Source: Syncephalastrum monosporum B8922 (lineage: Eukaryota; Mucoromycota; Mucoromycetes; Mucorales; Syncephalastraceae). From it: a DNA stretch of 64,000 nucleotides. Below, one piece after another: positions 1,551 to 61,132 of the stretch; positions within the stretch are counted from its first letter, which is position 1; each line of letters opens with the position of its first letter. Made by a program: the position numbers and the translations under genes. The notes beneath the pieces are model-generated. The model was not told the origin of the DNA, ran no database searches, and worked only from the letters and a program-made list of their open reading frames with translations. The stretch spans positions 62,001 to 126,000 of the forward strand of contig JNEN01001262.1 of NCBI GenBank assembly GCA_000697355.1, written 5' to 3'.

Positions 1551-4500
1551 TTAATTCATCATGGCGACGCCTTCGTCGTCACCCATAAAGTCGTCGTCCT
1601 CATCGTCAACAACGGTGCGGAAAAGTTCGCTCTGGATGTAGATTACAGTTATATATATATTTCTCCTAGATTCACCTTGTGTGGTTCGTCCCACACTTAC
1701 CTTTTTCTTTAAAATGTTGTCCATCAGACCTTCTTCGATCGTGTTTTTCATGATGATGGTGTGAATGAAGGTCTGTTTGGACTGTGTCATTCTATGGATA
1801 CGTGCAATAGCCTGGTCTATACACGAGGTGAGTGAAGCTATCCACAGTTACGCATGCATCGTCACCTACCCATGGTTGCTAAAAACGATTCACATGCATG
1901 ATTTCAATTAGTCCAACGTTTCTTTGCCTAAACAAGCCAAAAAATTTCTTTTTGGGCTGTGTGTGTGCGTGCGTGCACACAACATACCTGGATTCCACCT
2001 AAAATGAAATTTAAAGTTAGTCAGATGTCAACAGGAACATTCTGGAGAATTACCATCTGTCAAGAATGACCATATGATTGGCACGCTGCAAGTTCAAGCC
2101 TACGCCGCCCGCCTTGAGTGTGAGGAGCATGACGCGCACATCATCGTCGTGGTTGAACTGTCTCAAGGAGACAGTACGGGCAGTGGTCGACATTTCACCG
2201 TGGTCTATAACATGATAAGAAACAAAAAAAAAAAAAAAGCGACAGGTTGCTTTTTCTTTCCGCTTTCACATACAGGTGATGTGTTTGATACCGATTTTCG
2301 CCAACACGTCCGAAATAATGTACAGCAAGTCCAAGAACTACACACTGCGTAAATTCCCACGTATCTTTCTGCGTGTCTTCATTTTCCCTTCTTGCTTTTA
2401 CCTGGGTGACTACCACCACTTTCTCGCCCCGATGATGACGCGTAGTGGTCTGCAGGAATTGGATCAACCAGGCGACCTTAGTAGAGTGCTCGCGGTAGAA
2501 TAGTTCTTGCAACGCTCCAACATCCACCGGGAGCGCATCCAGTGGCTGATTTGGAGGGCCACTATTACCCTCAGTTTCGTTGCTGTTACTGCTATTCAGG
2601 TGGTTTTCTTGTGCTTCTAGTGCCTCTTCGTCACTTTAGGAAGATGAGTTTGATATTGTTTGATCCCCGTGGCGATACGTACTAATATGTCTCGATGATA
2701 TCCATCACCTCATGCAACTCGTTTTCCTCGTCCTGGGCCGAGTATCTCTCCATCCTGCGTTGCTCGCTCTCATCCACCGTGCCCAACTCATGGAGGGCTG
2801 CCTCTTGGTTGCTTTCCATAAGTGGGATCAGGTTGGGAAATTTGCCAGTCAGGATACGGAAATGACCGCAAGCTAAAGGATATATATGAAAAAAAAAAAT
2901 CGGATGCGTCAGTTGATTCATCTTTTTTCATGCTCAGCACGACTTGCTTTGTTTGAGACGCAGATACAGGATACCAGCAATGGTGCGTCCGTTATCGTTC
3001 TGAGCATGTTTTCGCCAATCGCTGATTTGCTTATAAAGCACACGTTCGAGGTAGTCGTAAAGGGCGCGTTCCGCATCAGTGAACTCGAGGACGACCCGGT
3101 TCTCGCGTTGCGGGAGGATGGTGAGTGCAGCCTGTAAAGATTTTTTGGTGCGTCGCACCATGTGCTGTTTGAGCATGGTCGACATGTACGCGGGGTCATG
3201 CTTGTATTTGGTGGAAAGAGGGATTTCGAGGAAGGCAAAGATGGGATAAAGTTCAGAGATGTTGTTCTAAAAGGACCAGGTTTGCGGGGTTGGTTGGTTA
3301 GTTGGAGGGAAGGGATCGTTAATTATGTATACGCAAAAGAACGTGCATGTGCATTCGAAAGCGTACCTGAAGGGGCGTGCCTGTCAGGCACCAACGGTAC
3401 CGTGTCCGCAGCTCAAGCACGGATTCGGTGACTTTGGAATGCATGGTGCGGATTTTATTGGATTCATCCAAGACAATACGAAACCAGTCCTGGTCGATCA
3501 AGGGCGACGGCTTGCCCGTCAACTCCCTGTTTCTGTACTCGGATCGAATGCGGTCGTAAGTGGTGATCACGATACGAAAAATGGGTTCTGTTGTAAAAAC
3601 AAGTGTGAGTCAGTAGCGTCCTACGGAGTACAGGGAGTCCCATTACGATCGATGAGGGTCAAGGTTTCTTCGCCGTAGATGAAATGGGGTAAACTGCCGT
3701 AGGTGGTTTTGGTGCGGATTTCTTCTGCCCATTGTTCGGCCACCTAATTCATCAATGATATCCATAAATACATTCCGACACACGCGCGTTCATGCGTTGT
3801 CTTGTGTTGTCACTTACACCACGTGAAGGAACGACGACAAGGGTGCATGCACGAACATTCAATTTGGGCTGTTGTCGCATAATCAAAGATAGCATCTGTA
3901 GCGTCTAAGGAGAGATGAAAAGATATCAGTTGTCACGCCACGCTTGTCCATCCGACTGCCCGTGATGATAGCACAGATAGCTTACCTTACCAAGTCCCAT
4001 CTACAAAGCAAACGAAAACGTGAGTTTAGACAGATAGTATCGCGTAGAAAACGAGTGGACCTACATCGTCGGCAAGGATGCCGCCGCGATAGGATTTCTC
4101 CATGCTGATCATACGATAGACGCCTTCTTCCTGATGAGGCTGGAGTTCAACGTCTTCGCGTAAAGACGCGTGGACTATTCAAACCCGTATGAGCTTACGT
4201 GCTGACGCGATAGGGACAATAGAGGTACGTACTGGCATTCATACTGACGTCGGGGAGCTGACCTGGATCTTCGACGGTCGTGATCAAGACGTTATCCTTA
4301 TCTGTGACGGCATAACACAGACTTGGTCAATGGACATGCAAGCTATAGAGAGCGCTCGAGCTAAGACGCCTCACCTCTAAGCCAGAATGCGTGTTCAACA
4401 GCATAGTAGGATCCGCCCACGTCAATGTAGAAGAAATAAACTGTCTCCAGAAACCAATCGTTCGGGAATTCTTGGCACAGGGCGATCAAGATGTTCTGTA

Positions 4501-19572: not shown

Positions 19573-20696
19573 TACAGATACAAAGAAGAAATGCGGTGGA
19601 TGCCCCGACCACGGCAGCTATTTGAGCACCCTATTTTCAGCCAACCCGCCCCGCATATGCGCGCAAGGCCGATAAAATAATAAACCAATCGTCTTTCACC
19701 TTTTCTCGGATCTTATCAGATCCTCCCTCTTCTCGCGCACTTTCCTATCAGACAAAAATCCTCACTATCATCTCATCGACCTTGTACCACTTTATCCATC
19801 CTACCCGTCATGATACAGTTGCAAGTTTGAAAAAATGCATTACAGAGCACAGTTTGTCTTCACTATTTCAGACCTTCTATTTTTTTTGTAGCTTCTTCTT
19901 CATATGATCGTCACGATCACTAATACAAGAGGTATCTGATAAATTCTGAAGGGAGCGGTGCCTGCATTAAACAAGCAAGTCATGCATCCAGACTCAGTGA
20001 AAGTATAACTGAAACATGATTACATCGATAATCATCCGACTTGCGATCTATGCACATGGACCCTGGGCAGACGAAGCGCACTAGCATGGAGACCGGACGA
20101 CCACGGTATTTGTACACAGTAAATCCATGAACTCTGCCTTCTACCCGCTCTTTTTGGCAATACTGTACATAGGTGTTCTGTAGGGAGAAGTGCCCCCTAC
20201 CACAGTAGCATGTTAACTTTATTGCATTGTCAGACGTCAAAGGAAAATCGCTGGTTATCTTTTTTTACACACCATCATGTAAGCATGGTGAATGCAGTCA
20301 GGAATGATATAGCGCCGCGTCTCTGTTGCCTCTTATGCGCGTGTATACGTGTCGTCATGAGACTGGCGAAAAGGTAGGACTTCTTCTCCTTTGCAGCGCC
20401 TTCTTGTAGACCACTATTCAGTACTTCGACCTTTGTCTCCCTCAGACTTCAGAGCCTTATGCTGTCCATATCATATTGACATACTGTACTGTAATTGCAT
20501 GCTGTCAACTGAAAAGATGAAAAGATGTCTAGGTTTTTATTTACCATTGATCATTATCATTTGTCTATAATGTTACTATACTAGAGGCTGCCGCTGGCGT
20601 TACCCAGGGATCACCGCGTGGAGGTCGCAGCCCGTGGATCCCCACCCTTATTACTTTATTAACTTGCCTGGACCTCAATTCCACTTCCGAAGAGAC

Positions 20697-20852
20697 AACA
20701 CATACATGCCAGTCCCGCATCCACTGCCAGCATGCCCCAAAGAGGTGGACTCACAGACATCAAGAAGTAGCAAACACCATCATACTTACAAAAGACACGA
20801 AACACATACATGCCAGCCCCCGTATCCACTGCCAGCATGCCCTAAAGAGGTG
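20697..20852. repeat. Direct repeat of about 50 bp, period about 103 bp
   Basis: The block beginning ACACATACATGCCAG and ending AAAGAGGTGG occurs twice, 103 bp apart, with three to four substitutions (for example CCGCATCC versus CCGTATCC and CCCCAAAG versus CCCTAAAG). Confidence 0.8.
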
Positions 20853-21659
20853 GTGAACAGACTGTATGGGAAAGGGGCCCCCCGCGAGGAAGGCGAAAAA
20901 CCCATAGGAGAACAAAGGAAGTGGAAGAGGTATAAAGAAAAGGACACAGTAATCCAGACCGTTCTTATCGTCCGTTGAACCTTTTGGATCCAGCAGCCTG
21001 GTCCTGTCTGGCTTGCACGTGTGAACGTGAGAGTCTTGCTGCGGAAACTCCTCTCTCTGTCTCTCTCTCTCTTTGTTTTTTTTTTTCTTTCTCCTTCATT
21101 ATTTTTGAGTGTAAAAAAGTGATCTACTTTGCGTTAGATCTTCTGGTTGCTTGCTGATGTGCTAGTTCGCAGAGTGCCCATAGAGATCCTTTTAAGCGAA
21201 AGCAATGGATAGACAAAGATGATAATCGATGACGACACCATGTCATGAGAAGATTAAGCAAAAGTTGATAAACAAAAGTGTTTTATTAGCGCGTTCCCAA
21301 TGTGTGGGTTTGCCGTCTTTCCGCGGAGCATGTTTACTCTTATGCGTCAGAGACCCAGCCGCACCCCGTGCCATCAAACGCAAGAGAAATCAGACAGATG
21401 GCCTCATCCATAGGATAAAAATCAAACATACATCTTCCTCTCTATATAAATCTTGCGATCACTCTTACAATTTTCCTTATGCTCTGGTAGAGGCAGTGGA
21501 ACAGTCAGCAACAAACTCCAGTTGTGATCTGCTGTTGTAACACAGAATGTGGAAAGAACAAAGTTACAATGCAGATAATCCACTTCAACTGTCAATGCGG
21601 CGGGACGTGCCGATGTGTAACCCAGAGATGATCCCATAATAGGTCTAACACTTTTCTGA

Positions 21660-21770
21660 CAAAAAAAAAAGTGAGAAGAAAAACGAAGATAGAAAAGAAA
21701 AGAAAGAAAAGAAAAGAAAAGAAAAGAAAGAAAAGAGAAGAGAAGAGAAGAGAAGAAAAAGAAAAATAAA
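21660..21770 (+). repeat. Polypurine tract (AAAAG/AGAAG)n
   Basis: About 110 bases of almost pure A and G with AAAAG and then AGAAG pentamers. The minus-strand frame through it (Phe/Leu/Ser only) is not a gene. Confidence 0.85.
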
Positions 21771-22133
21771 GACGGCTGTCCTATCCTCATTATGAAATAC
21801 AAAATGGAACAGCGATAAAGAATACTATACCTACATACCTACATTAAATATGAATCATAAAGAGATATTATCTGAATCTGAAGGTCAATAAAAAGTTTTT
21901 TTTTCATATGCTTACGCCACTCGTGTTGTACCGTCGCATGGTGGTGATGTGGTTGTCACATAGCGTAGATGTTGGGGGGCGGTGTTTATGCTGATTATCA
22001 TTTATCGTTGGAACAGCGAACAGACCCAGAGGAAAGGATGAGGACGCGTTTACTGAGGGATACTCACACACTCTTCCTTTTTTCTTCTTCCTCTGCTCCT
22101 CGATCTTCCTTTTTTTTTTTTTCTTGATTGACC

Positions 22134-23216
22134 ATGCTCTTTTTCTCATTGAACCCCTTCAAATCTACTTCTAACCACACCCGCGGTGCGTCTGGGATGG
22201 CTCAAGACCAGTTGGACTCGCCCCTCAATGCTTGGATTTTCCGGCCTCTTTGTGCAATAGGTCATGGTCTTATCAACGCCTTGACTAGCAGCTGGCCGTG
22301 CAAGGACATGCTTCAAGAGCATCATGCTATCGCTTCTTCTGACACTATCGGCAACGATGACACTTACGACATGCTGGATGACAAGGACGAGATTGTGCAG
22401 CAACGCCAGAAGTACCTTTCCAGCTGCATTAAGCGTGGAATGTTCCATGGCCACGGACCTTTCAATCTTTCACCTTACTGCGTCCCTTCGCTCACGTCAA
22501 ACTGCGTGACCGCCGTTGAACGGGTTTTCCAAAGATTTGTTGCCCCGGTGCTGCCTACCACTCAAGCTGGCATATTCATGCATGGTGTCAGCCGTAGCTA
22601 CACGTATTACTTTTACACCTCTACTGCTGCCAGACAAGCACACGAAATCAATGATGCTGCGCGTAGCCGTCTTCTCACCACAGCTGCTACTGCTGGTGCG
22701 GCTGTCCAAAGCAGCAGCCATTCGCTGACCATGTCTTTCCTCTGCAATCTGCCATTGACTGTACGCTCCTACTCGTTCCGTCTCCTCTACAAGAGTATCA
22801 TCCTATGCCGTGTCGCTCAGCACCTGCCCCAACACCATCCCCGTGCGCTGTTCCAAGGTGAGGAGGAGGAAGAGGAGGTCAAGAAAGATGAGTACAGCTG
22901 CTTCCCAGCCGCTGCCGCTGAGGCAATGCGCCAGGCTGTGGCCGAGGATGATGAAAAGTGGGTCTCGATCGACAAGCAAGAGATCGACGACGACTTCTTT
23001 GGTACCAGCAACGATGACGACGACGACTATGACCATGTCCAGAAAGATGAAGACTACGACCTAGTTCAAGAAAAGGAAGCGCAAGAATGGTTCCCTTCCG
23101 ACATCCGCCACTACAAACAGGACGCCTACCATGATCAGCTGTTGTCGTCTTCGCGTCTTAACGGCGCTCGAAACAAAATCCATCGCTGGTGCCGAGTGCT
23201 GGGCGTGGGCGCTTGA
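22134..23216 (+). CDS. Orphan single-exon acidic protein, 360 residues
   Basis: Starts MLFFSLNPFKSTSNH and ends at TGA/TAA 23216. It has a helical middle with several Cys and His residues (WPCKDMLQEHH, CVTAVERVFQRFVAP, SYTYYFYTSTAARQAHEIND) and a strongly acidic stretch (EEEEEEVKKDE, later SNDDDDDYDHVQKDEDYD). Hydrophobic segments such as MSFLCNLPLTVRSYSFRLLY are too short or polar for confident membrane calls. Codon use looks coding (C-ending codons, no stops over 1 kb), which supports a real gene. No family recognised. Confidence 0.65.
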   Translation: MLFFSLNPFKSTSNHTRGASGMAQDQLDSPLNAWIFRPLCAIGHGLINALTSSWPCKDMLQEHHAIASSDTIGNDDTYDMLDDKDEIVQQRQKYLSSCIKRGMFHGHGPFNLSPYCVPSLTSNCVTAVERVFQRFVAPVLPTTQAGIFMHGVSRSYTYYFYTSTAARQAHEINDAARSRLLTTAATAGAAVQSSSHSLTMSFLCNLPLTVRSYSFRLLYKSIILCRVAQHLPQHHPRALFQGEEEEEEVKKDEYSCFPAAAAEAMRQAVAEDDEKWVSIDKQEIDDDFFGTSNDDDDDYDHVQKDEDYDLVQEKEAQEWFPSDIRHYKQDAYHDQLLSSSRLNGARNKIHRWCRVLGVGA

Positions 23217-24207
23217 ATAATCCACTTATCATTCGCCCGTGGCAAGGCGCCGCCATGCGTCTCCAAAAAATTCAAAATCTTACCCTTTGCTTTAGCGACT
23301 TTTTGCGTATACCAAGCTACATGTGTATATATACTATCCCTTACAAATGAAAAGGTACAATCTCTACTTTTGTTTCAATAAAATTCACAACTATACTCTA
23401 CATAAGCATAAGATACGCTCGTCCACGATTACTAGCGTCGCATTAACAGAATAACTGTGTATGTAGCTGTCAGCTCGTTGCTCCAAGATACTTCTCACAG
23501 TATCGAGATACATACTCACGCACATCAAGCAAGTTCAAGGAATTCTTTCATTGTACAGCTGCTTCAACGCAGAAAGACTTAGCAGAGTAGTCCGTAAATA
23601 CCAGATGAATGGTAGATACCGGCGCGGGCGGTGATGATCGACTTAATGCTTCAACTAAGTTTATGTTGGCTCAATAAGTTGTGAAAAAGGTCGATGGTGC
23701 GATACAAGCTCGGGTGAGCCTGCGTCAAACCAAAAGCAAATTCGCAGGTTGATCTCGCGTCCACTTGTCTATGTTCATTGACTGACTACGAGATGAGCAT
23801 CAAGCTTACGAGCTTTTTTCCCAGTCATGGAGGTGAGAAGCACGAATGATCAAGTGAGGGAGAAATCGAATAAGAGATTATTTGTTTGCATGGCTTGTCC
23901 TGCCTATTGAGGCAGTCCAGGTAAAGGCGCATTATCTTGAATCCTTCATAAGCCCTCCATGATATGTTGTGATCTCTACTAAAACGAATTCGCAAATAGC
24001 GAGCTTCAGAATGGAGAAGGCGTAAAAAAAAAAAAAAGAATTGGAATGGGTTTCAGGAGGGCCAAAACCACTCATCGGCCGATCACGATGGCTTCGAGTG
24101 GCCACACCTGTCCAGCACGCGCTATCATCCTCTATACAGTATGTACAGAGGGGCAGGCTACAGCTGTGTGGACTCTGCTGTCTGCTCTTTGGATGATTCT
24201 GGTTTAT
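23217..24207. other. Intergenic stretch, no gene seen
   Basis: AT-rich, with an AATAAA-like signal near 23377 (TTTCAATAAAATTC) that could serve the upstream gene. A (A)13 run lies at 24025. Nothing else supported. Confidence 0.45.
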
Positions 24208-25264
24208 TTATTGATTATGTACAAGAAAGAAGTTGGCAGACTATATATGGTGTCTACTTCACTCACCTTACAATGCAAACACTGCTATGGCTCAGATAGA
24301 AATTGTCCAAGATTTAAGCTTGGTGAACACGACATCATCATGAGTAGCAAGGGCTGCATTCTAAGCACAGCGGGTGTGCTTGGCAGGCAGTCGGTGCCTG
24401 TGGGTGGTGTGCTTGGCTTAACAGAGAGACGGTGATCGTGAAATTAGAGTGTATGCTTTTTTCGTGTCAGACATCTCTCTGGATACGTCAATCGTGGGTA
24501 TCGTTGGGATGAGGGCTTGGCTCAACAGAGAGACGGTGATCGTGAAATTAGAATTGAACTGCTTTTTTCGTGTCAGACATCTCTCTGGATACGTCCATCC
24601 TGGTGCTGCGCAGCAAACTACAAAAAAGAAAGATGAAGGAAAAAGGACGTGTCTGCCGCAGCACTTTATTTACTCACGGTTTGTGGCTTAATTCTAAACC
24701 AGTGCTATGGGTGCGCTCTGCTTTAGGCAGAATGGATAATGGGATAGAGTCATGCCTGGACGAGGGTGTCCAAGTCTTTTGAACAGTGTTTCAGGCGAGG
24801 CACGCACTTTGACGCACTCCAGGTGATCGATTCACGGTAGTTCTTGCATAAGATCCCCAATGTTGTCATGAGTCACCTGACATAAAATTGAGCTCTCTTA
24901 CTGCTTCAACACTGTGTATCTCTGCACTGAACGCTCGAACTGTTTTCTGCGTAGTATAAGAAGGTTCAGTCAGTCAATTACAAATGGAGTCCTGGGTTTG
25001 AAGTGCTCAGGCAACGTTATGAATTTATTGATAAGCTGCAGCAAATATGGCTTGGACTCAGCACCTGAAGATGCATATAAGTACTTTATAAGTACTTTAT
25101 TATGTTACCCTAGCATTGTATTGGGAAGAACGAATGCAATAAAGCTTCCGTAGAGCATGGACACGGAGGCATTTCGAAAGGCACAATTCGCTAGACAAAG
25201 AGCTGTTTCACGTCAATTATGCGTGCGGAGCTGCGGAGTACAAGGTGCAGCAGCCAGCATACAC
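24208..25264 (+). repeat. Dispersed repeat family 1, copy A
   Basis: About 1.05 kb that matches 50078-51006 in the same orientation, at roughly 85-90 percent identity by eye, from GATTATGTACAAGAAAG to CAGCCAGCATACACGCG. This copy carries an extra internal tandem duplication of about 105 bp: the segment with AACAGAGAGACGGTGATCGT and TCTCTCTGGATACGTC appears twice at 24419-24500 and 24522-24600. No terminal inverted repeats or clear target duplication. A short shared frame encodes LQCKHCYGSDRNC, but substitutions between copies are not mainly synonymous. Confidence 0.85.
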
Positions 25265-25763
25265 GCGGACGCTATAGCTATAGTATACCTTTTTGATCAT
25301 TAATTTATACGGTCACTGGTCATTGGATTAAAGACTCTTAGGTATGTACGTAATGAGCAAGCGCTCGAACAGAGATTGTGGCAAAGAAAAAGAAAACAGA
25401 AAGCATCAGTTGTCTTTAACAAAACCGCATTCACTGGCCAGTCAAGGTCAAATGTATTTAAAAAGACGTAGTTGTGAACAGCAATTTGATTTTTTGATCT
25501 AACGATAATATGCTCGTTTCATAGATTCCGCGCTGGCACGGAATAGGTTTATACTAGATATTAAAAAAAGCCATGAGTACAAAAGTCAAAGCATAACTTA
25601 TATCCTTTTCAGCTTACTCATCTATCCCGTGCAGTCGCTCATCACGGTCAACGTTAATCGTCACGGCAAGTGCTGCAAGTCCTTCACCGTCGACTTGCGC
25701 ATCACCGTGAAAGTACTCCCGGCTTCTCGACAGGTTCTCCAACCTACTACGGGCAAACGCAGG
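25265..25763. other. Intergenic stretch
   Basis: AT-rich, no supported gene. A plus-strand frame from 25629 overlaps the decayed minus-strand gene and is judged a shadow. Confidence 0.35.
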
Positions 25764-28012: not shown

Positions 28013-28357
28013 ATGGACAGTTCTAGGGATCATTTCCAAGCTCAAGAAGCTCAAGAAGCTCAAGAAGCTCAAGAAGCTCAAGAAGCTCAAGAAGCGCGAG
28101 ATAGCCCAGCAGCACCATCAGTCACCATAGCCTCTATCAGTACTACAATGCCTAACGACACTCCAGTAAATGCAAGTTCGGCACCATCCACTCCGACCAA
28201 TGGGTCAATACACACCCCGGAACACCTTACCACAATAGACGTCGATATTTGGCTATGCTGGGACACCCATTTGACTATGTTGCCATACTCATTTGGCTAT
28301 GCTGCCATACGTATTTGGCTATGCTGGCGACAAGGACTAGATGTAGAAGATTTATAA
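28013..28357 (+). CDS. Small QEA-repeat protein, hypothetical
   Basis: 114 residues, MDSSRDHFQ then six or seven QEA units from a 9-nt repeat (CAAGAAGCT), then a Ser/Thr/Pro-rich part. The C-terminal 35 residues are encoded by four copies of the dispersed motif ATTTGGCTATGCTG. A TATA-like box and CT-rich leader precede it. The C-terminal repeat origin and small size make it uncertain that this is a conserved gene. Confidence 0.35.
   Translation: MDSSRDHFQAQEAQEAQEAQEAQEAQEARDSPAAPSVTIASISTTMPNDTPVNASSAPSTPTNGSIHTPEHLTTIDVDIWLCWDTHLTMLPYSFGYAAIRIWLCWRQGLDVEDL
28039..28095 (+). repeat. 9-nt tandem repeat (CAAGAAGCT)n
   Basis: Six near-identical units in frame, encoding QEA. Confidence 0.9.
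28244..28330 (+). repeat. Short interspersed motif cluster ATTTGGCTATGCTGG, four copies
   Basis: Copies begin near 28246, 28270, 28291 and 28312, spaced 21-24 bp. The same motif is found in the opposite orientation at 46071-46106 and 56344-56362. Confidence 0.8.
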
Positions 28358-29089: not shown

Positions 29090-29701
29090 TATTCCAGGAA
29101 TCATCAAACGATGTTGTTGAGTGCCAGAGCGAGCGAGAGATGAGTTTCCAGCGGTAACTTCCATTGGCGGTCTTGAACAGATAGGCGCGTGTTGTGCAAT
29201 GCCATAGTCACATCTAAGGAGTTGACCAAAAGATGTTGCAGATGAGACATCATCCAGGCGTATCACGGCAGCTGAAAGCGGTTCTGATGCTCTTCGCTTG
29301 CGAATAACCGGACTATCGCTGTCACTGGGGCCTTAATGGCTATGATCATGGAAGTCCGATTTTTTTTTCCTGGATCGTCTTGGCCGTGATTATGGGAACG
29401 TTCAGACCCAGGGGAATACGAGGCATGTTCATGCGTGACATACTTGTGAAGCTGGTCAACATAGCCTGATTGACCTTTGGGGTCATCAGATACGTCGCCA
29501 AAATAATACTCCGTGCGTAAATTCTTGAACGCTTCGCTGCGGTCGTGTGTGAACTTTCGATCGGCGTTCAGTATGTGATTGAGTTCCTCCGCCAGCATAG
29601 CTGAGTGAGGACCACGAGCTTTGGCGTTGTTGAACTGGCCATGGCTTTGAACAACAGAGAAAAAACGTTGGGAGCAGAGATGGGAGGAAAAGAAAAGAAA
29701 A

Positions 29702-30230
29702 ACCGTGTGAAGGTATTGTCCGCGTTTATGCCATCAGGAGCACGTCATAATGTTCCTCACATGAGTCCTTATCCATGATAACGGTAAAGAAAAGGCTGCT
29801 GCGGTTTCAATGAGTGTCGTTGCCCTGAACGACGCGAGATCAAAACAGCCACTACGCGCATCCAGAAGATTAATCTGAATTTGACAACAGTTTACTTCAT
29901 CCAAAGAAGACGCGAGTTTTTTTATCACACAGCGACGCCGCCTTCGCTTAGTTCAGCCCAGAAGTTACATGGATGCGTAGCGCACGTTCTCGTGTGCATG
30001 TGCAAACTTCTGCGTGTTTACGATGCCGTTATCGTACTCTGCCACGGTCATTTGGGGTATCGTACGAAAAAAAGCCCATCTCCCAGACGTGGAATTCGCT
30101 TGACCAATCCATCTAGAGTCCGGTCTCAAAGCTTGTCAGGGTGAACTAAGCCAATGTCGCATATTCACAGTGAACGTATAAGGTCTTGTTTCCATGAATG
30201 TCCTTGGATGTCCATTATAGACCGTTTCCA
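29702..30230 (+). repeat. Dispersed repeat family 2, copy A
   Basis: Matches 45147-45835 in the same orientation. Shared blocks include GACGCGAGATCAAAACAGCC, CTACGCGCATCCAGAAG, TTCATCCAAAGAAGACGCGA, CAGCGACGCCGCCTTCGCTT, CCCAGAAGTTACATGG, GGGTATCGTACGAAAAAAAG and GAATTCGCTTGACCAATC. This copy lacks two segments of about 85 and 45 bp present in copy B. Confidence 0.85.
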
Positions 30231-30472: not shown

Positions 30473-31689
30473 CTACACTTCGATGACAAGCTTGCCGAAC
30501 TGGTCGCTGTTACTAAAAAGGCAAATAGAAATCGTCAGTATCAGTCGAAGACAGCTTGCATCTATCGTTAAAGCACTTACGCCATGACGGTAAAAGCGTC
30601 ATCGACGCTTTCCTGGGTGAGACCTTTCCAGGTATGCGAGACAATAGGCTTAATCTTGTGTTTGTTGACAAAGGCAACCATTTCCTGGAACTCGCGGCGT
30701 GAGCCCATGGTCGAACCAACGAAATCAATGTTCTTGACCCAGTAGGGAAGGCTATAAGTGACGCCTTGCGGGGTTGCCGTGTGACCATATTGGACGACTC
30801 TCGCGCCCTCTTTGAGAACTCTGTGATACTCCGCATACAGAGGGCCACCAGCACCGTCGATAATGACAGACAGGAGGTTGCCACCCGTCTTCTCCAAAAG
30901 CTTATCAAGGCAGCCATCTAAACGAGGAACCAACATTTCAGTCTTTGGAAAATCTCAGAGTCAAGCTGACACTTACCCTCCTTGTAGTTGATACCACCCT
31001 TGGCACCGAGTGCAATGGCCTTCTGGATCTTTTCGTCGCTGCCGGACGAGACGTAGACGTTGGCACCAGCCGCGACAGCAAACTGGAGCGCGAAAAGGGC
31101 AACACCACCACCAATACCGGTAATCAAGATATAGTCACCTGCCTTGATGTCTCCCTTGGTGAACAAGGCCCGGTATGCGGTCAAACCGGCCAAAGGGAGT
31201 GCGGCGGCTTCGGCAGTGGACAAATGGTCGGGGCATGCCACGAGCTCATCTTGATCGATGGCAACCTTGTCGGCGAAAAGGCCAATGTCCGGGAGAAGGC
31301 CGAAAATGTTGAATTTACCTTCCGGGGCTCGCGGATCGGTCAGCCAGTGGCGGCCGGGGGTGATAAGGACGCGTTGGTCCTTGGCAAACTTGGAACTAGC
31401 TTCTTGTAGGCTTCCAACGGCGTCAGCTCCGAGTACAGAGTCAAGCACTAGGTTTGGATACTGGCCCTTGATGAGCCAAAGATCACTAAAAAGTTGTTAA
31501 ATTAGTACAGGAGTTTTAATGCGCATGCGTCTGAAGGTCTTACCGATGATTGAACGCGACAGCTTGCACATTAATGACCACATCCTGAGGAGAACCCTGC
31601 TTCTGGTACTCGTTATCTTCCTCGACGACCGCGCTGTATTTGTAGTTGGTCCCGGCTGCGGGAGTGGACTTGAGGACGACTCTAACCAT
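30473..31689 (-). CDS. MDR-superfamily NAD(P)-dependent oxidoreductase (quinone reductase-like)
   Basis: Four exons, 31689-31544, 31485-30977, 30917-30581 and 30512-30473, give 343 residues. Order: MVRVVLKSTPAAGTNYKYSA, QDVVINVQAVAFNHRDLWLI (GroES-like N-domain), YPNLVLDSVLGADAVG, VLITPGRHWLTDPRAPEG, LSTAEAAALPLAGLTAYRAL (typical PAALPCAGLTAW-type helix), AGDYILITGIGGGVALFALQ (nucleotide-binding GxGGVA/GxxA loop), GANVYVSSGSDEKIQKAIAL, VIIDGAGGPLYAEY, GARVVQYGHTA, IKPIVSHTWKGLTQ, FGKLVIEV. The structural and catalytic zinc ligands of alcohol dehydrogenases are not evident, so a quinone oxidoreductase or YogA-type enzyme is likelier. A decayed paralogue lies 1.4 kb upstream. Confidence 0.92.
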
Positions 31690-33089: not shown

Positions 33090-33660
33090 GCCACTGCTGC
33101 GACCTTGTCTTCCTCTTCGGTGAACATGGTACCGTATGCCGTCAAACCGGCTAGTGGAAGCGCAATGGCTTCGTGGACAGATGATCCGGGGATAGCGCAA
33201 GATTATATTGGTTACTACCTTGTGGGCAAAAGGTGTTAACGCTCGGAAGCAGACCGATAATGTTGAAGTTGTTCTTCAGAATTGCCTATTGCCCACCCAG
33301 TCGTGAGCCGGATTAGGAAGGACGCGTTGGCCCTTACCAACCTTCGAGAAGGCGTCTTGGAGGGTGTAGACAGAGTTGAAGCCGAGCACAAGCTGAGTAG
33401 CACTGGTTGGATACTGGTCCTTGAGGATCTATAGAGCATTAAAGAATGGGGCGCGGTCAGTCATAGGATGCACACCATACATCACGTCCCGGAGACTGGT
33501 ACCGGTGCTTGAACGCATCGCCTGCAAGTCGACTACCATGTCTTGAAAGAACCTTGCTTGGGGTACTGTCTGTCTTTTGCAACCACCGCATTCTGCTTGT
33601 GGTCGGTGTCGGCTTTGGGAGGGAATGACTTCGAGATTGGTGTACGTTGATGTACGTTGT
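33090..33660 (-). pseudogene. Decayed paralogue of the MDR oxidoreductase
   Basis: Base-by-base comparison shows clear homology to the intact gene at 30473-31689. GGATACTGGTCCTTGA matches GGATACTGGCCCTTGA, AAGGACGCGTTGG matches exactly, TATGCCGTCAAACCGGC matches TATGCGGTCAAACCGGC, and TTCGAGATTGG-side sequence resembles the N-terminal exon. Frames shift repeatedly, and homology covers only about the first 170 codons (to the AYRALFTKG region). A truncated, neutral-looking duplicate. Confidence 0.8.
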
Positions 33661-42039: not shown

Positions 42040-43275
42040 TTAGAGCTTTTCAGAACGCTGTCGATCAAGGCATTCATTCAATAGACGTAAAACGTTATGG
42101 AATCCCTTGAGCAGACCTGCGTCTTGAGCTGTCCGGTCCACGTCCCAGCGCGAATGGGCAAAATCAATCAGGCGTACATCGTACAGCTTGGGCTCTTCTT
42201 CCTCTTCCTCTTCCTCTTCCTCTTCCTCTTCCTCTTCCTCTTCGTCGTGTACTTTGTCTTGTGCTTCGCGGTTGTCTTCTTCAATAAGTTTCTTCCAGAC
42301 TCGATTGGCTGCCTCGGTATCGCCTTCATACACGATCAGCAGCGACGCACCAATGAGTTCCACGGCAGGGTAGGCTTCCAAGAACTCGACCATGGATGCA
42401 ATATCCTCAACGAGGCTTTCGATGATCCACCGCATTTTGGTGCCTGTCAGCTTCTTGCGGAGGCTCGAGGATGATTCAGCGGGGTGTTCCTCATCTGGAG
42501 TGGTAGTGCGGTTTTCTTCGGGTGCTTTGGCGTAGGCTGAGGTAGGGAAAAAGTAGGCAAGGAACGCGTCGAGGATGGTGTCCTGGGTGCGTGATCGTCC
42601 GTAGGCTTTCGGATAGGAGGACCACGCTCTGTCTACCGTATCATAGACCTGGACACAAGGGTTGCAAGCATGAGCAAACATGAGGGTCCGACAGCGGACG
42701 AGTTACCTTCATGCCTGATATCCGCGCAGCCAATGTCTCAATGGTCGTGCCCTTCGCATTGGCCTGCATCTTTTTGCGCTTTTCCTCGTCAGCGTCATCG
42801 TCATAAAGCCGGTCACCCAGTTTGATGTCCATAATACAGGGTCGTGTGAAGCCATGCAAAAGATTTTCTAGGCACAAGTGCTGTGTATATCCAATCTCGG
42901 TTACGGATGATACAATAGGAAAGGATCATGCATAGGTATATAAAATGCCCAAAAAAGGATATCATCCAGAGCTCGACCTTGGGTATCGCGCGGGCGCTCG
43001 ACACCCGGTATCGGCACCACACCCTCGTTCTCCTTTTCATTGTTCAGCAGCTGCTTCTCGGCCTCCGTCGACGAGCGTAAGCTGCCAAAGCATTGCGGAA
43101 TCCAAGGCGTGAATTCTGGGTACTGCTGTGCGGTTTCGTAAAAGTCGAGCTCGGTCCGGGTACACGGTTTAATGACGAGCAGATCCGTTGTAGACAGCTG
43201 CAAAAGACGATCGTGCCCTGCAATTTGGTTATCGAACTTGACAAGTTGGTGATCACTCGCAATCAAGGACGCCAT
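42040..43275 (-). CDS. Inositol polyphosphate multikinase (IPMK/Arg82-like)
   Basis: Start MASLIASDHQLVKFDNQIAG. Motifs in order: GHDRLLQLSTTDLLVIKPCT, ELDFYETAQQYPEFTPWIPQ, LCLENLLHGFTRPCIMDIKL with the inositol-binding PxxxDxKxG signature (PCIMDIKLG), TTIETLAARISGMKVYD, a kinase C-lobe with IGASLLIVYEGD (SLL motif) and YDVRLIDFAHSRW (metal-binding IDF). An acidic run of about 20 Glu lies just before the IDF motif. The IDFAHS variant and size fit IPMK rather than IP6K/Kcs1. The enzyme makes IP4/IP5 from IP3 in the nucleus and supports transcription and inositol pyrophosphate supply. The join between the N-terminal exon and HLCLENLL is not certain from splice sites. Confidence 0.9.
42190..42248 (-). 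repeat. Coding hexanucleotide repeat (GAGGAA)n
   Basis: Encodes the poly-Glu run in the IPMK gene; on the plus strand it reads (TTCCTC)n. Confidence 0.9.
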
Positions 43276-43601: not shown

Positions 43602-45004
43602 TCATACAAGAGTAGCATCTGCTAATCTAACACGTCTCTTTTCTAACGTACCTTCAGACAAATCGGTGACCTCGGTAGTCGTGCGATACGCTTCTGTAAA
43701 AGAGAAAGGGAAGGGGAAGGGGAATGGGAAGGGGAATGGAAGAGGAAGGGGAACGGAAGAGGAAGGGCAAAAAAAATGGGAGTTGACTTACCACCAGACC
43801 CACCGCCGCCACCGTCGCCCCCCTTCACCTACACTGTTAAATCAGTAATCATTTTTTTTTTTTGAACAAAATTGATTGATTGACTTACCTTCGCATCCTC
43901 CACCTCCACCGCCACCTGCCGCCCGCCGCCGTCGCCACCTATGTCATAATATCAATAAGTATTCATGTAGAATGTGATTTGTCTGGCTTACCTCCACCGC
44001 CACTGCCTCCTCCTCTCCACCGCCGCCGCCACCACCGCCGCCGCCACCTATGTTATTATATCAATAAGTATTGATGTAGAGTGTGATTTGTCTGACTTAC
44101 CTCTACCGCCACCGCCGCCGCCTCCTCCTCCACCTCCACCTACCTTCGCCGCCGCCGCCGTCGCCACCTATGTTATTATATCAATAAGTATTCATGTAGA
44201 ATATGATCTGTCTGGCTTACCTCCACCACCACCGCCTCCTCTCCATCGCCGCCTGCCGCCTGCCGCCGTCGCCCTTCACCTGCACTGTTAAATCAGTATC
44301 ATTTTTTTTGAACAAAGTGATTTGATTGGCTTACCTCCACATCCTCCACCGCCACCTGCCACCTGCCACCTGCCACCGCCGCCGTCGCCACCACCGCCGC
44401 CGTCACCATCTATGTTATTATATCAATAAGTATTCATGTAGAATGTGGTTTGTCTGGCTTACCTCCACCGCCGCCGTCGCCACCACCACCGCCGTCACTA
44501 CCTATGTTATTATATCAATAGGTATTCATGTAGAGTGTGATTTGTTTGGCTTACCTCCGCCGCCACCACCACCACCTCCTCCTCCTCCTCCTCCTCTCCA
44601 CCGCCGCCGTCGCCACCTATGTCATAATATCAATAAGTATTCATGTAGAATGTGATTTGTCTGGCTTACCTCTACCGCCACCGCCGCCGCCTCCTCCTCC
44701 ACCTCCACCTACCTTCGCCGCCGTCGCCGCCGTCGCCGCCGTTGCCACCTATGTTATTATATCAGTAAGTATTTATGTATAATGTGATATGTCTGGCTTA
44801 CCTCCGCCGCCACTGTCTCCTCCTCTCCACCGCCGCCTGCCGCCTGCCACCTGCCGCCGTCGCCGTCGCCATCGCCATCTATGTTATTATATCAATAAGT
44901 ATTCATGTAGAATATGATCTGTCTGGCTTACCTCCACCTCCGCCGCCACTGCCACCTCCGCCTACCTTCGCCGCCGTCGCCGCCGTCGCCCACCACTGCT
45001 CTGT
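43602..45004 (-). CDS. Gene-like array of Gly/Ala-rich exon cassettes with near-identical introns
   Basis: On the minus strand, cassette exons of 73, 77, 79, 62, 39, 75, 59, 67, 56, 50 and 37 nt (45004-44932, 44878-44802, 44748-44670, 44616-44555, 44501-44463, 44409-44335, 44279-44221, 44167-44101, 44047-43992, 43938-43889, 43828-43792) are separated by near-copies of the same intron. A normal tail exon (43693-43652) encodes EAYRTTTEVTDLSE, and a final exon ends DATLV-stop at 43602. The cassettes are GGC/GGT/GCG-rich and give Gly runs, or Ala/Val/Glu in the other frame. The full path meets a stop in the 67-nt cassette, but skipping the 59- and 56-nt cassettes keeps the frame open to the tail. 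No start codon with good context was found 5' of 45004; a TATATATATA stretch lies at 45057-45070. Product and function unknown; protein-coding status is inferred from the splice signals and the tail. Confidence 0.55.
43829..44931 (-). repeat. Tandem array of ten near-identical introns (eight type A, two type B)
   Basis: Type A introns are all 53 nt, at 44931-44879, 44801-44749, 44669-44617, 44554-44502, 44462-44410, 44220-44168, 44100-44048 and 43991-43939. They run GTAAGCCAGACAAATCACAT ... ATAATAACATAG with one to four differences each. Type B introns (44334-44280, 55 nt; 43888-43829, 60 nt) run GTAAGYCAATCAA ... TTTAACAGTGYAG. The order is 5A, B, 3A, B, consistent with block duplication. 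Confidence 0.9.
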
Positions 45005-45146
45005 CTATGGAATCAGATATATGCGTTAGCCATTCATATGAAAGAGAGAGAGAGAGATATATATATATAGGGAGTGGGGAGAGCATGAGTGCGTTAGTCG
45101 GTGGTAAGGAAAGTTGAAAAGAAAAAGAAAAAGAAAAAGAAAAACC
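45005..45146. other. TATA-rich stretch upstream of the cassette array
   Basis: (AG)n followed by (AT)n at 45040-45070 reads on the minus strand as TATATATATATCTCTCTC, a possible core promoter. It then meets a (GAAAAA)n run at 45117-45145 and the family 2 repeat. Confidence 0.35.
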
Positions 45147-45835
45147 GCTTCAAGGCGCTGTCCGCGTTTTTTCATGCAGTCAGAATCATGCAAAAGTGTC
45201 TATCACGTTCTTCTACGGTCCATGGGAGTCTCTATCCAAGTGAACGGTAAAAAAAAAAAGCTGCTGCGGTTTCAAAGAGTGTCGCTGTCCTGAAGGACGC
45301 GAGATCAAAACAGCCAGAACCCTCCATATCACTTTCTAGTATAGCTAAACCATATTGCTAAGCGGATCAGCCATTCTTTTATGTGTTCTAATACTTGCCA
45401 CTACGCGCATTCAGAAGGGTAACCTAGACTTGACAGCAGTCTAGTTCATCCAAAGAAGACGCGAGTCTTCTCAAGTGTCCACATTTGGAAATCCCAAAAA
45501 GTCCTTTCTCTTTTTCATCACACAGCAACGCCGCCTTCGCTTCGTTCCGCCCAGAAGTTACATGGTAGCATGGCGCACATTCTCATGTGCATGTACAAAC
45601 TTTTCGCGTGTCTGTACGATGTCATTATCGTATTCTGCCGTGGTGATTTGGGTATCGTACGAAAAAAAAGACGATCCCCCAAACGTGAAATTCGCTTGAC
45701 CAATCACGAGTCGCCATTATACAGACCAGTGTCGAAGCTCCTCCAAAGAACTTCCCGAATATTTCATTTACAGTGAGCATATAAGGCCTTATTCTATGAT
45801 GTATTTGGATATCAATTACAGAATGTTAGAGTAGA
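45147..45835 (+). repeat. Dispersed repeat family 2, copy B
   Basis: Longer copy of the element at 29702-30230. It has extra segments of about 85 bp after AAAACAGCC and about 45 bp before TCACACAGCAACGCC. A minus-strand frame has YDTQITTAEYDNDIVQTREK in this copy, with stops in copy A, so a former coding segment is possible. Confidence 0.85.
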
Positions 45836-46339
45836 CTTAAAATTGGGAACGATTCGAAATATAGAAAGAGGACTTCACTGGACTATTGATGCAATCACTG
45901 ACGAAGTGATGGCTCACACTATGAACTGTCATTATTATCAAACAACTGCTTTGTGATTTATACTCATTATGACATACATGGGAAAAATTAGCAGCAGACT
46001 TTCTGGTGTTTATGCAGACAAGTTATAACACACAAACTGTCTTGTGTGGGCAATAAGGTAAGGCAAAGCGCTAGCATAGCCAAATGGGTAAGCCAGCATA
46101 GCCAACTTAAAAGAAATATGTGCGTGCTGCGATAGAAACGAGGTACATGCTGTACATACGCTATACAGACATTATTCACGCAACTTATGCGTAAAGAGGA
46201 ACATAAAGGTGCCTATATATCTGTGCTGCAGCACAATTGTGGTGAAATGACCGACTTTACAGGATGTGTAGCATTCGGTATCAAAGTTGGCAGACAACAC
46301 AAATTAAAATTTGCGCGTCTCACTTTTTCTGCTCCTGTC
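45836..46339. other. Intergenic stretch with two copies of the CAGCATAGCCAA motif
   Basis: GCTAGCATAGCCAAATGGG and CCAGCATAGCCAACTT lie at 46070-46106. Otherwise AT-rich upstream sequence of the PIP-box gene. Confidence 0.5.
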
Positions 46340-49538: not shown

Positions 49539-50077
49539 TTGTAAAGTAAAGGAGAGTAAAAAGGAAAATGAAGAAAGGGAGAAAAAGTGGAAAGAGGGAA
49601 GCGGGTTGGAGGTGTCACCGCAGGACAAAAACAAAAGAACTTTAATGGCAACCGTCACGGCTCACGCGGAGGCCAGGTTGCACCTGTGATAGGACGCACC
49701 AAGCCCAAATTCATTTTATGGATGGCTATATCCTTCAACATTCGATCTGCGTCCTCATGCTCATTTCAAGCGTCATATACACAGTGCGTTTGGAAGAAAA
49801 AGCACAACATGCATTGACCCACAAACTGTGTCGGGAAATCATGCCGCTCGCTGCAGCCTGCTCATTATCCAAAATACAACCGCACTCCATACAAGGCCAG
49901 TCTCAGCTTGCACCTCTGCTGAACAGTAAGGATGTATTATTTATCACTGGTGATAAATGCCAGGGATAGCACAGCATGTAATGAAATGGTGGCACTGCAA
50001 ATATTCGAAAGTCATTGATGGTATAGACCAAATTATAAAACGATAACGGAAAGATGAACGGATACCAGAAAGATGGT
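49539..50077. other. Intergenic stretch
   Basis: Leader side of the orphan gene (A/G-rich on the plus strand, 49550-49600), then AT-rich sequence to the repeat. Nothing else seen. Confidence 0.4.
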
Positions 50078-51006
50078 ATATTATCGATTATGTACAAGAA
50101 AGAAGTTGGCAGATACATATGTTGTCTACTTCACTCAACTTACAATGCAAACACTGCTATGGCTCAGATAGGAATTGTCTAAGATTTAAACTTGGTGAAT
50201 ACGACATCATCATGAGTAGCAAGGGCCGCATCCTAAGTACATGGCTGTGCTGGGCAGGCAGTGGGTGCCTGTGTGTGGGCGTACTTGGCTCAACAGAGAG
50301 ACGGTGATCGTGAAATTAGAGTGTATGCTTTTTTCGTGTCAGACACCTCTCTGGATACGTCAATCGTATACGTCCATCCTGGTGCTGCGCAGCAAACTAC
50401 AGAAAAGAAAGATGAGGGAAAAAGGACGTGTCTGCCGCAGCACTTTGTTTACTCACGGTATGTGGCTTACTTTTGAATCAGTGCTATGGGTGCGCTCTTC
50501 TTTTGGTAGAATGAACAGAGTAATAGAGCCGTGCCTGGAGGAGTGTGTCTAAGTCTTTTTAACAGTGTTTCAGGCAAGACACGTACTTTGACGCACTCCA
50601 GGTGATCGACTCACGGAAGACACCTTGTATAAGATCCCCATACATAAAGTAGATCTGTCTAACTGCTTCAACGCTGTGTATCTCTGCACTGAACGTTCGA
50701 ACTGTTTTCTGCGTAGTATAAGAAGGTTCAGTCAGTCAGTTACAAATGGACCCCTGGGTTTTAGGTGCTCAGGCACGTTATGCATTTATTGATAGGCTGC
50801 AGCAATTATGGCATGGACTGAGCACCTGAAGATGCATAGAGATACTTTATGCTACTCAGCATTGTATTGGGAAGAATGAATGCAATAAGGCTTCCGTAGA
50901 GCATAGACACGAAGGCATTTTAAAAGATACAAATTTCGCTAGACGAAGAGCTGTTTCACGTCAATTATGCGTGCGGAGCTGCGGAGTACAGCAGCCAGCA
51001 TACACG
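50078..51006 (+). repeat. Dispersed repeat family 1, copy B
   Basis: Same orientation as 24208-25264. Lacks that copy's internal 105-bp duplication and has TATACGTCC where copy A has the longer form. Ends at CAGCCAGCATACACGCG like copy A. Confidence 0.85.
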
Positions 51007-51261
51007 CGCTCACGCCTTTCGCCATAGATACCTTCGCCTGACCACTGGTTTATGCCTTCACTAATTATTGCTATGAAAAAAAAAAGAAAAGCTCATGACC
51101 AAAAAACACGTCGAATACAGTGAGCTTCCGTGCCGAAGTCACAAGCTGATTTTGATCGTTTTCAGTGTGCATTTCGCTGCTGCTTGCAACAGCTCAATTA
51201 TTCTTGTCTCAGGGTTATACGTCGTTATAAATGTTTGGACAACTGTCGGACCACAGAGCCA

Positions 51262-57807: not shown

Positions 57808-59373
57808 TCATTTCAGTGCGCTGTCAAAATCAGCACGCACTTGCTGATACACGTTCTCATCCAGGGCAACCAAGGCCGCGGTCTTGGATAAGCACTTGGC
57901 AGCGCGCAGCGTTGCCTGGTGCGCTTCCGGGGTACCAGCCGCCCGGGCAAAGTCAATCGTATGATTCGGACCGGTCGTCTCAATCTTAAATCTAGTATCA
58001 CTCGGTTTAGCCTACTTACGAAGGTCTCTTCCGTTCGCAGGCGCAACTTACCCTGGCTGCAATGCGGGAACAACATAGGTGATGTTGCCAAAATCAGAGG
58101 AAGCGCCTGGAATTTGTTCCTCTACCTCGCGAGACTCAAAGTGCACACCTTCCTTCTTCATGAAGCTCTTGTATGTCTCGGCGAGGGTGTCGTTGATCAC
58201 GGCGTCATCCACCTGGCCAAACGGCGCCCAGGTCAGCTTGACCTTACAGCCCGTCGCTACCGCTGCGGCTTCGAAGCATTTCTCGGCTTTCTGCTTGAGC
58301 TCGGCCAACTCGCTGCGCTTTTGCGCGCGAGCATAAAACTTGGCCGAGGCATAAGCCGGAATGACATTGGGCTATCCATTAAAGAGAAGATGTCAACTGT
58401 ATGATCCTCAGGTACCCTCGTGAACATACCGAATTGCCGCCATGCACGATGTAACCGTGCAGTCTGCAAGAATAAAAAATCAGTATGCACGACAAAGCAT
58501 GACATGGTTCTGTTTTACCGGTTGGTAGGCAATGTCTGCTGTCGCAGCATGGAAATATTGTCCCAGGCTTGCATCAGGGCATCGACAGCATTGATACCCT
58601 CCCATGGTGTGGCACCCGCATGGGCAGCGCGGCCGAAATACTCGACTGTGAACGAATGGAGTGCTAGAGAATGAGCATATACACCGTCCATCGGTGTAGG
58701 ATGCCTAAGAAATGACGCGTGAGCATCCAAGAAAGAGCTTCCTTCCAAATAAAAGAAAAATTAAAAGTAGAATTACTTACAGCATCAAGACAACATCCGC
58801 ATTACGCTGAACCTCGCCCTGATTCACAAAGGTAATCTTGCCCGAACTCGACTCTTCTGCGGGCGTGCCAAACAGGATCACAGAGCCCTGGATGTGACCT
58901 TGCTCGATCAAAGTCTTGGTCGCGATCGCACACGCGACGCCCGCAATCGCAATTAGGTTGTGTCCACATGCATGGCCGACGCTAGGAATTGGTCAATGTT
59001 TATTTTATGTGATACGATATTGACATTACCCAGGCAGCGCGTCATATTCGGAACAAAAGCCAATGCGCCGCCCTGGCGCACGTCCAGCATATTCGGCTGT
59101 GAACGCTGTTGCCAGGCCAACCACGCCGCGCTTCACCAGGAAACCTTTGCTTTCCATGTAGTCTGCCAGCAGCTTGGAAGCCATGAACTCATGATCGCCT
59201 AATTCCGGATGGTCGTGGATCTTTATGTTATTTATGCCATTGCGATTCCGTCAGTTTCATGTTTAAACCGATAACAAAGGAAAACAAAGTGAGACCTGAA
59301 GGCTGATTGAGCGCAGCTCGTCGGCAATACCATCTATGACCTGCACAATGGTGTTTTCTACGGTATCATTCAT
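57808..59373 (-). CDS. M20 family metallopeptidase/amidohydrolase (PM20D2-like), copy 1
   Basis: Multi-exon. Starts MNDTVENTIVQVIDGIADEL. Motifs: IHDHPELGDHEFMASKLLAD, KGFLVKRGVVGLATAFTAEY, GRRIGFCSEYDALPG|VGHACGHNLIAIAG (metal ligands His and Asp in the M20 arrangement), ILFGTPAEESSSGKI (catalytic Glu-Glu), HPTPMDGVYAHSLALHSF, YFGRAAHAGATPWEGINAVD (dimerisation-domain His), HGYIVHGGNS|PNVIPAYASA, GASSDFGNITYVVPALQPG, ETTGPNHTIDFARAAGTPEA. Two-metal carboxypeptidase/amidohydrolase of the ACY1L2/AbgB type; substrates are N-acylated or dipeptide-like compounds. A second copy lies immediately upstream in the same orientation. Confidence 0.92.
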
Positions 59374-59529: not shown

Positions 59530-61132
59530 CTATTGAGGTTTGCCCTTTTTAAAGTCGGCCACCACTGCGCTGTACACAGCGTCGTCCAAAGACACGGTCG
59601 CAGCCGTCATGGCCAAGCATCGCGCAGCGCGCAGGGTGCATTCATGTGCGTATTCGGTCGCGGTCGCCTTGGTAAATTCGACCGTATGGTTCGCCGCATC
59701 TGTACCAATGCCGAACCTTATTTCAAAAAAGATAGGTGAGTGGGAGATATTCCCGACGACGCTTGTTTCCTTACCCTGGGTGGATCGTAGGGACCACGTA
59801 GCTTATGTTACCGCAGTCCGTGCTGCCGGTCGTCAGCTTTTCCTCCTCGGCGCGCGGCAAAAAGTGAGCGCCTTCCATTTCCATGTATTCCTTGTAGTAT
59901 TGCGCCATTGTGTTGTTCATAAACACATCTATTAGATCAACAGGGGTGAGTAGAGGTATTAGCCTGAATAGATGCTCACGCGGTACCTTCGACAGGGCCC
60001 TTAGCCGCCCACGTAGACTCGAGACGGCATCCAGTGGCCACCGCAGCGGCCTTGAAGCAGTTCTCGACCTTGACCTTGAACTCCTTGAGCTGGTTCCGAG
60101 TGACGGCGCGCACGTAGAAAAAGGCGGAGGCATAATCGGGTATCACATTGGGCTGCATGCGTGTGTGTAATGTGAGTGTTCGATAATCAATTCAAAATGA
60201 CTGACTTACTCTGCTACCACCGTGGGTGATGATACCATGGACTCTAAAGTACACACTTTAGTACCTTTGCACGCACCTTATCTTCTTCTTACCTGTTAGT
60301 TGTCAATGTTTGTTGTCTCAGCATCGATACATTGTCATAGCCTTGCATCAAGGCGTCCAAAGCGTTGATTCCTTCCCACGGTTTCATGCCAGCATGCGAG
60401 GTTCGGCCAAAGAACTCAAATTTGACAGAGTCGAGGGCCAGCATCAGCGGGTAAATGCCGTCCTTTGCAAAAGGATGCCTATATAGGAGTCAAGCCCGTG
60501 ACACCCATACGCGCGCATGTCCGACTTACAGCATCAAAACAACTTCGGTACGCTTCTGGACCTCGCCGGCCTGAACGAGATCTATCTTGCCGCTCGTCGA
60601 CTCCTCGGCGGGCGTACCAAACAGCGTGACACTGCCGTTCAAGAGACCCTTCTCCATCAGGGTGCGCGTAGCGATCGCACAGGCAAGGCCGGAAATGGCA
60701 ATCAGGTTGTGACCGCAGCCATGGCCCACGCTTTTGTATGAACCGAGTGTCAATAAAACAGGGCAAGGTGGGCGTTTTTTTTTTTTTTTTGCTATCTTTG
60801 TTACCCAGGCAACGCGTCGTATTCAGCACAGTAGCCGATCCGTCGGCCGGGCTGGCCGCTCGTGTACTCGGCAATAAACGCGGTAGGCAGACCAGCTACA
60901 CCGCGCGTCACCGTAAAGCCTTTCTGCTCGAGGTAGTCCGACAAGAGCGCAGCTGCCTTGTATTCTTTCTCGCCCGTCTCGGGATTATCGTGGATCTGTG
61001 TCATGGGGAGGTTGTTGGTTATGCGGCAGGATAAGACGTGTATAAAGTGTTCACCTTGAGACTAATGTCGCGCAATTCGCGATCGAGACCGTTAATGGTG
61101 GAGTCAATAATGGACTTGACCTCGGCGTTCAT
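59530..61132 (-). CDS. M20 family metallopeptidase/amidohydrolase (PM20D2-like), copy 2
   Basis: Same exon organisation and motif order as copy 1. It reads MNAEVKSIIDSTINGLDREL, IHDNPETGEKEYKAAALLSD, KGFTVTRGVAGLPTAFIAEY, RIGYCAEYDALPG|VGHGCGHNLIAISG, VTLFGTPAEESTSGKI, HPFAKDGIYPLMLALDSV, FFGRTSHAGMKPWEGINALD, HGIITHGGS|PNVIPDYASA, TDCGNISYVVPTIHPG, and ends FKKGKPQ. All visible metal and catalytic residues are retained, so both copies are probably active. Differences cluster in the substrate-side dimerisation domain. The 156-bp gap to copy 1 suggests tandem duplication. Confidence 0.92.

Follow-up and report, generated by a model that had tools for sequence, protein, structure and literature searches.

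The window analysed here is a stretch of 64,000 nucleotides that comprises bases 62001-126000 of contig C183 (547,694 bases); the genome searched amounts to 27.5 Mb in 198 contigs. On the minus strand of the window, from 45004 to 43602, ten intron-like segments lie in tandem, spanning 44931 to 43829 (locus A; Table 1). Eight of them are exactly 53 nt long (type T1), and two belong to a related type (T2) of 55 and 60 nt, or of 50 and 55 nt if each T2 intron is taken to end at the earlier of its two acceptor AGs. All ten start with GTAAGC or GTAAGT and end with TAG or CAG, and the G-rich internal cassettes measure 37-79 nt. This layout had been described in a sequence-only reading of the window, and a recount gave the same ten minus-strand segments, the same two types, and the same range of cassette lengths.

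The T1 introns of locus A differ from one another by 0-13.2%, and are thus near-identical introns within a single gene; two pairs (introns 1 and 7, and introns 3 and 9) are identical, as expected from the duplication of units or blocks. The T1 and T2 introns can be aligned over most of their length, look homologous, and keep the same signals, and the two acceptor AGs of T2, spaced 5 nt apart, are kept in all five T2 copies. The repeat unit of the array contains exon ends together with a complete intron, and Tandem Repeats Finder scores reached 622, far beyond chance. After the terminal intron, the tail reads EAYRTTTEVTDLSE, continues as GTLEKRRVRLADATLV, and ends with a stop at 43602. Donor-like and intron-end-like sequences (GTACGT...TGACAG) occur 3′ of the tail; the frame simply continues to a TGA whose position is shared by the three paralogues described below.

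Several other features were recorded in the window, in which three of nine ORFs matched Pfam at E ≤ 0.01. An inositol polyphosphate kinase gene (42040-43275, with PF03770 in the ORF 42040-42681) lies on the same strand as the array; by eye, some 330 bp separate the array tail from the downstream ATG of this gene. An NSA2 ORF was 90% identical to that of Umbelopsis vinacea and 89% identical to that of Bifiguratus adelaidae, the best 2 of 120 listed matches (5263 found), which makes an early-diverging member of the Mucoromycota the probable source of the DNA. Two diverged duplicate pairs are present, one at 31158-31490 and 33119-33443 (66% identity), mostly within an ORF with a zinc-binding dehydrogenase domain, and the other at 58775-59222 and 60524-60997 (65% identity). 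A 22-nt tandem repeat, ATTTGGCTATGCTGCCACACCC, occupies 28247-28326, and similar TTGGCTATGCT motifs were seen by eye near 46080-46110.

Table 1. Features of array A, its sister arrays, and the relics; positions are those of the window unless a contig or other sequence is named.
Feature	Location	Strand	Remark
Shared upstream segment, promoter-like by position, CT-rich tract at its end	45018..45458	-	homologous in A, B, and C, partly in relic D; 11.8-14.5% substitutions between A, B, and C
First G-rich exon, 73 nt	44932..45004	-	follows a possible acceptor, ATTCCATAG, assigned by eye
Intron 1, T1, 53 nt	44879..44931	-	identical to intron 7
Cassette, 77 nt	44802..44878	-	
Intron 2, T1, 53 nt	44749..44801	-	
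Cassette, 79 nt	44670..44748	-	
Intron 3, T1, 53 nt	44617..44669	-	identical to intron 9
Cassette, 62 nt	44555..44616	-	
Intron 4, T1, 53 nt	44502..44554	-	
Cassette, 39 nt	44463..44501	-	
Intron 5, T1, 53 nt	44410..44462	-	
Cassette, 75 nt	44335..44409	-	
Intron 6, T2, 55 nt	44280..44334	-	50 nt with the first of two acceptor AGs
Cassette, 59 nt	44221..44279	-	
Intron 7, T1, 53 nt	44168..44220	-	identical to intron 1
Cassette, 67 nt	44101..44167	-	
Intron 8, T1, 53 nt	44048..44100	-	
Cassette, 56 nt	43992..44047	-	
Intron 9, T1, 53 nt	43939..43991	-	identical to intron 3
Cassette, 50 nt	43889..43938	-	
Intron 10, T2, 60 nt	43829..43888	-	55 nt with the first AG
Cassette, 37 nt	43792..43828	-	
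Terminal pyrimidine-rich intron, 98 nt	43694..43791	-	acceptor AG in A and B, AA in C
Tail exon, 92 nt including the stop	43602..43693	-	reads ...AYRTTTEVTDLSEGTLEKRRVRLADATLV; stop position common to A, B, and C
Array B	C183:34090-35140	+	similarity search; 5 T1 and 2 T2 introns
Array C	C183:507455-508294	-	similarity search; 4 T1 and 1 T2 introns
Relic D	29685..29920	-	pieces of the upstream segment without an array, running into other sequence
Relic E, decayed array gene	L002 ~2830-3110	inverted	adjoins B; 61-76% alike in pieces

Similarity searches with T1- and T2-unit queries, in which the best candidates were scored, returned locus A and two sister arrays, B and C. A genome search for further copies of the 53-nt intron had been suggested from the sequence of A, and it was in these two arrays only that such copies were found. 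The three arrays lie on one contig and hold 22 introns of the T1/T2 family, 10 in A, 7 in B, and 5 in C; a search of the genome with the tail peptide likewise gave A, B, and C only. Relic D shares with A, in the same order, a pair of adjacent modules that comprise an upstream segment and a portion of the segment upstream of the array (45126-45822 and 29685-30221); at D the modules lead into other sequence, as if a promoter had been reused. In relic E, the terminal pyrimidine-rich intron is still recognisable, and a T2-like intron is, by eye, without donor and acceptor.

Array C is embedded in a longer dispersed repeat. Pieces of this repeat at 20336-25536 of the window share 83-93% identity with the right-hand end of C183 (at about 503-510 kb), with the region upstream of B, with part of contig C123, and partly with window 50074-51080. 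The array segment of C (1,347 bp between the flanking matches) lies inside the repeat, an array-free form of which is present at about 20500-25536 of the window, and some 400 bp of the repeat (window 21268-21670) occur on both sides of the array in C. An ORF of the host repeat (22128-23216) matched neither Pfam nor, among 4207 candidates, any protein (E ≤ 0.01 in both searches). B joins the host repeat at the same upstream point as C, a shared junction that points to a single event from which both arrays probably descend, having been copied as DNA.

Many near-identical introns are also what a mobile intron of the introner type, inserting repeatedly into a G-rich exon, would leave behind. The 18-nt donor-side pattern of the array introns was searched genome-wide with zero to two mismatches, and the pattern read backwards served as control. 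With zero or one mismatch, 17 sites were found, and all 17 lie inside A, B, or C, which fits tandem duplication of exon plus intron rather than a mobile intron; with two mismatches there were 14 sites, 3 in the arrays and 11 elsewhere, compared with 5 for the control. Moreover, exon parts are repeated together with the introns. Contradicted by both the genome-wide pattern search and the unit similarity searches, a mobile intron is implausible in the extreme.

The array could instead be a non-coding minisatellite, a plain DNA repeat with a unit of about 92-130 nt that is never spliced, and of which GTAAG and AG are mere parts. A tandem repeat with a variable G-rich part and no conserved frame would suit such a description, and so would the tail region, for which residues 80-122 of the B read gave no protein database match at E ≤ 1 (14 candidates). 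However, the columns of the splice signals are invariant more often than chance would explain: 23 of the 53 T1 columns vary, compared with none of the 11 in GTAAG, TGAT, and the final AG (P = 7e-4; 16/17 copies; kinship of the copies ignored). Counting minimum changes gave 29 events in 17 copies and P = 1.2e-3, again with kinship ignored, and leaving out the branch columns weakened the test (GTAAG and AG, 0/7 variable; P ~0.013, calculated by hand from the same counts). The TGAT motif is presumably the branch site, as judged from fungal introns in general. Because the donor had been the search key in the first listing, 172.7 kb (the window, the right end of C183, the B region, and part of C123) were rescanned with models of the intron interior from which the ends had been cut off. 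The same 22 introns were returned, together with one weak match per model (E = 0.049 and 0.064), and GTAAG and YAG were kept in all 22; the models, built from array introns, missed the diverged relic E within the scanned B region.

The invariance of the signal columns amid this variation suggests that splicing has been maintained in the array introns. The pyrimidine-rich terminal intron, which is distinct from the others and in A and B has GTAAG and TTTTACAG, and the tail, with a stop common to the paralogues, also argue against a minisatellite, which we regard as unlikely but not negligible. The loss of the last acceptor in C, where AG has changed to AA, indicates that the constraint on splicing is incomplete. 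The view that TTGAT, the form present in arrays A and B, is a weaker branch sequence than CTGAT was not borne out when intron-like motifs were counted in DNA outside the arrays, a count that gave too few sites for a genome consensus (sites against reversed controls: CTGAY, 6 versus 1; TTGAY, 11 versus 2; CTAAY, 1 versus 2; CTTAY, 3 versus 2).

The sequence-only reading had also raised the possibility of a functional gene whose cassettes, used selectively, yield a family of Gly-rich (or Ala/Val/Glu-rich) proteins, and its individual observations held. In frame 0, the path that includes all cassettes meets its first stop in the 67-nt cassette; a path without the 59- and 56-nt cassettes is open to the tail stop; and the cassettes are not multiples of three as a group. 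Only 6 of the 22 internal exons of A, B, and C are such multiples (lengths modulo 3 of 0, 1, and 2 in 6, 6, and 10 exons), a distribution that looks random and leaves no regular in-frame units. All cassette subsets were enumerated, the second T2 acceptor being used throughout. When they were read in the tail-stop frame, with the first ten codons ignored, A had 262 open subsets of 1024, B had 19 of 128, and C had 0 of 32. With so many open choices in A, the open path that skips two cassettes is unremarkable, and since GGN sequence should contain few stops in any frame, open choices are to be expected.

From the tested leader ATG, none of the subsets was open (0/1024 in A, 0/128 in B, and 0/32 in C), and the all-in path from this ATG to the tail was closed in the three arrays with every acceptor choice tested (4, 4, and 2 combinations, respectively). 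In A, the reading frame of the leader ATG reaches a stop at its seventh codon. By eye, A has a further ATG upstream that shares the frame of the first exon; this ATG is absent in C and followed by a stop in B. Retention of any of the ten array introns of A would introduce stop codons in all three frames. The tail, 30 codons long, ends at the same stop in all three loci, and its pairwise nonsynonymous to synonymous differences are 8:0, 8:1, and 8:1, against about 28% synonymous expected without selection. Such an excess could reflect diversifying selection; however, the 8-9 differences per pair are too few for a firm test, so that diversifying selection is not firmly indicated, and nothing in the tail points to protein constraint. 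The enumeration of subsets did not support exon choice as a device for protein diversity, and with the mostly amino-acid-altering changes in the tail, its lack of a database relative in the search described above, and the lost acceptor in C also counting against it, a protein family of this kind is highly doubtful.

The relationships among the arrays differ between introns and flanking sequence. Among the T1 introns of a single locus, the difference is 8.1% in A, 6.4% in B, and 17.3% in C; the difference between A and B (7.8%) equals the level within these two loci, as might result from homogenisation of the silk type discussed below, and the upstream segments of these two loci differ by 13.1% (A-C, 14.5%; B-C, 11.8%). 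C is not homogenised with A and B, whose T1 introns differ from those of C by 21.0% and 21.5%. In a tree of the introns, those of A and B are mixed and the first intron of C falls among them (support 91/95, below the mark of the tool), 12 of the 16 inner branches being unresolved and the bootstrap not settled. These values suggest that exchange between the loci has preserved the similarity of A and B, or that C has drifted faster.

The arrays consist of tandem units, occur at three loci, include identical intron pairs, and differ in copy number. The explanation that we consider fairly probable is a small, contig-local family of Gly-codon-repeat genes, grown by expansion of an intron-containing repeat, which now appears to be free of protein constraint and would be either decaying or non-coding. 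Unequal exchange or replication slippage would have multiplied, in head-to-tail order, a unit comprising a G-rich (GGN-repeat) exon and a short spliceosomal intron, and the amplified gene would have been copied as DNA to other sites on the contig, with A and B remaining alike through exchange or C drifting faster. A minus-strand primary transcript is predicted to be spliced at GTAAG...TGAT...YAG, joining 12, 9, and 7 exons in A, B, and C, respectively. Because cassette lengths disregard the reading frame, the spliced product would contain no conserved protein, and the locus would for that reason be decaying or a source of spliced non-coding RNA. The sequence-only interpretation thus survives in one part, growth by duplication of exon-plus-intron units, which the identical intron pairs and the array lengths of 10, 7, and 5 favour, and finds no support in the other, a protein family generated by exon choice.

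If the introns are spliced, the question arises of what keeps the splice signals once the frame is no longer kept. One answer would be a functional gene for a spliced non-coding RNA that depends on the repeated exons or on splicing itself, for which the preserved splice signals, the unpreserved frame, and the paired T2 acceptors all speak. Against it stand the acceptor lost in C and a search of Rfam, which returned no family above its gathering score; a known RNA family was set aside on this result, the one match being below threshold (21.1 bits versus 62). A functional RNA gene is unlikely, although the estimate overlaps with that for the favoured repeat expansion. A related and distinctly unlikely proposal is that splicing itself, and not a protein, is under selection; the array of repeated introns would then be maintained in order to be spliced, or to yield a spliced RNA of repeats, and the tandem T2 acceptors and frame-free cassettes would act as a frame randomiser.

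The sequence-only reading had known of no named system like this array, but published precedents exist in the repeat expansion of a Cryptococcus gene (PMC2395259) and in the repeated, homogenised introns of spider silk genes (PMC9779670). In the account of Sharpton et al. 2008 (PMC2395259), introns 3, 4, and 5 of Cryptococcus CNN00420 are identical and lie in a repeat of about 107 nt that consists of exon ends and the full intron, short exonic repeats of about 39 nt also being present; splicing is supported by ESTs, intron number varies among strains, and the single-copy gene is called functional. The array resembles this gene, as there described, in being a fungal locus with near-identical introns, an intron-containing repeat, and a variable copy number, here among paralogues. 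It differs in that CNN00420 is single-copy, EST-supported, and polymorphic between strains, whereas here there are three loci with 10, 7, and 5 introns that are predicted to be spliced. A kept coding frame, present in CNN00420 and not needed for the mechanism, was not found at the array loci.

The MaSp2 silk genes of the spider Argiope were reported to contain repetitive exons split by homogenised near-identical introns, of two types in some genes, and exchange between clustered paralogues was proposed, with the introns of flagelliform spidroin cited likewise (Baker et al. 2022, PMC9779670). The array shares the repetitive exons and the near-identical introns of two types, which may likewise have been homogenised. 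As far as that account goes, however, silk exons are regular protein units, whereas those of the array follow no frame; the introns of silk genes mostly cluster gene by gene, whereas those of A and B are mixed; and T1 and T2 do not alternate.

Introners and introner-like elements, which have been described as inserting into many genes (PMC4457414, PMC9860276), are likewise numerous and near-identical, but they do not fit, because the array introns have not spread; they are confined to three arrays and repeated with their exons. The SP7-like effectors of Rhizophagus (PMC11333574) are also fungal repeat genes with paralogues; they are described as having conserved protein repeats and a conserved intron before the first repeat, features that set them apart from the array, and that report gives no hints of them in Mucoromycotina or Mortierellomycotina. 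A literature search found few cases of spliceosomal introns multiplying in tandem with exons in a fungus. The array is an unusual case of a known type of gene growth, from which it differs by its three arrays and frame-free exons, and because one contig carries three sister arrays of unequal length, and close by a copy of the repeat that hosts C but lacks an array, the way in which such introns grow in number and decay can be tested.
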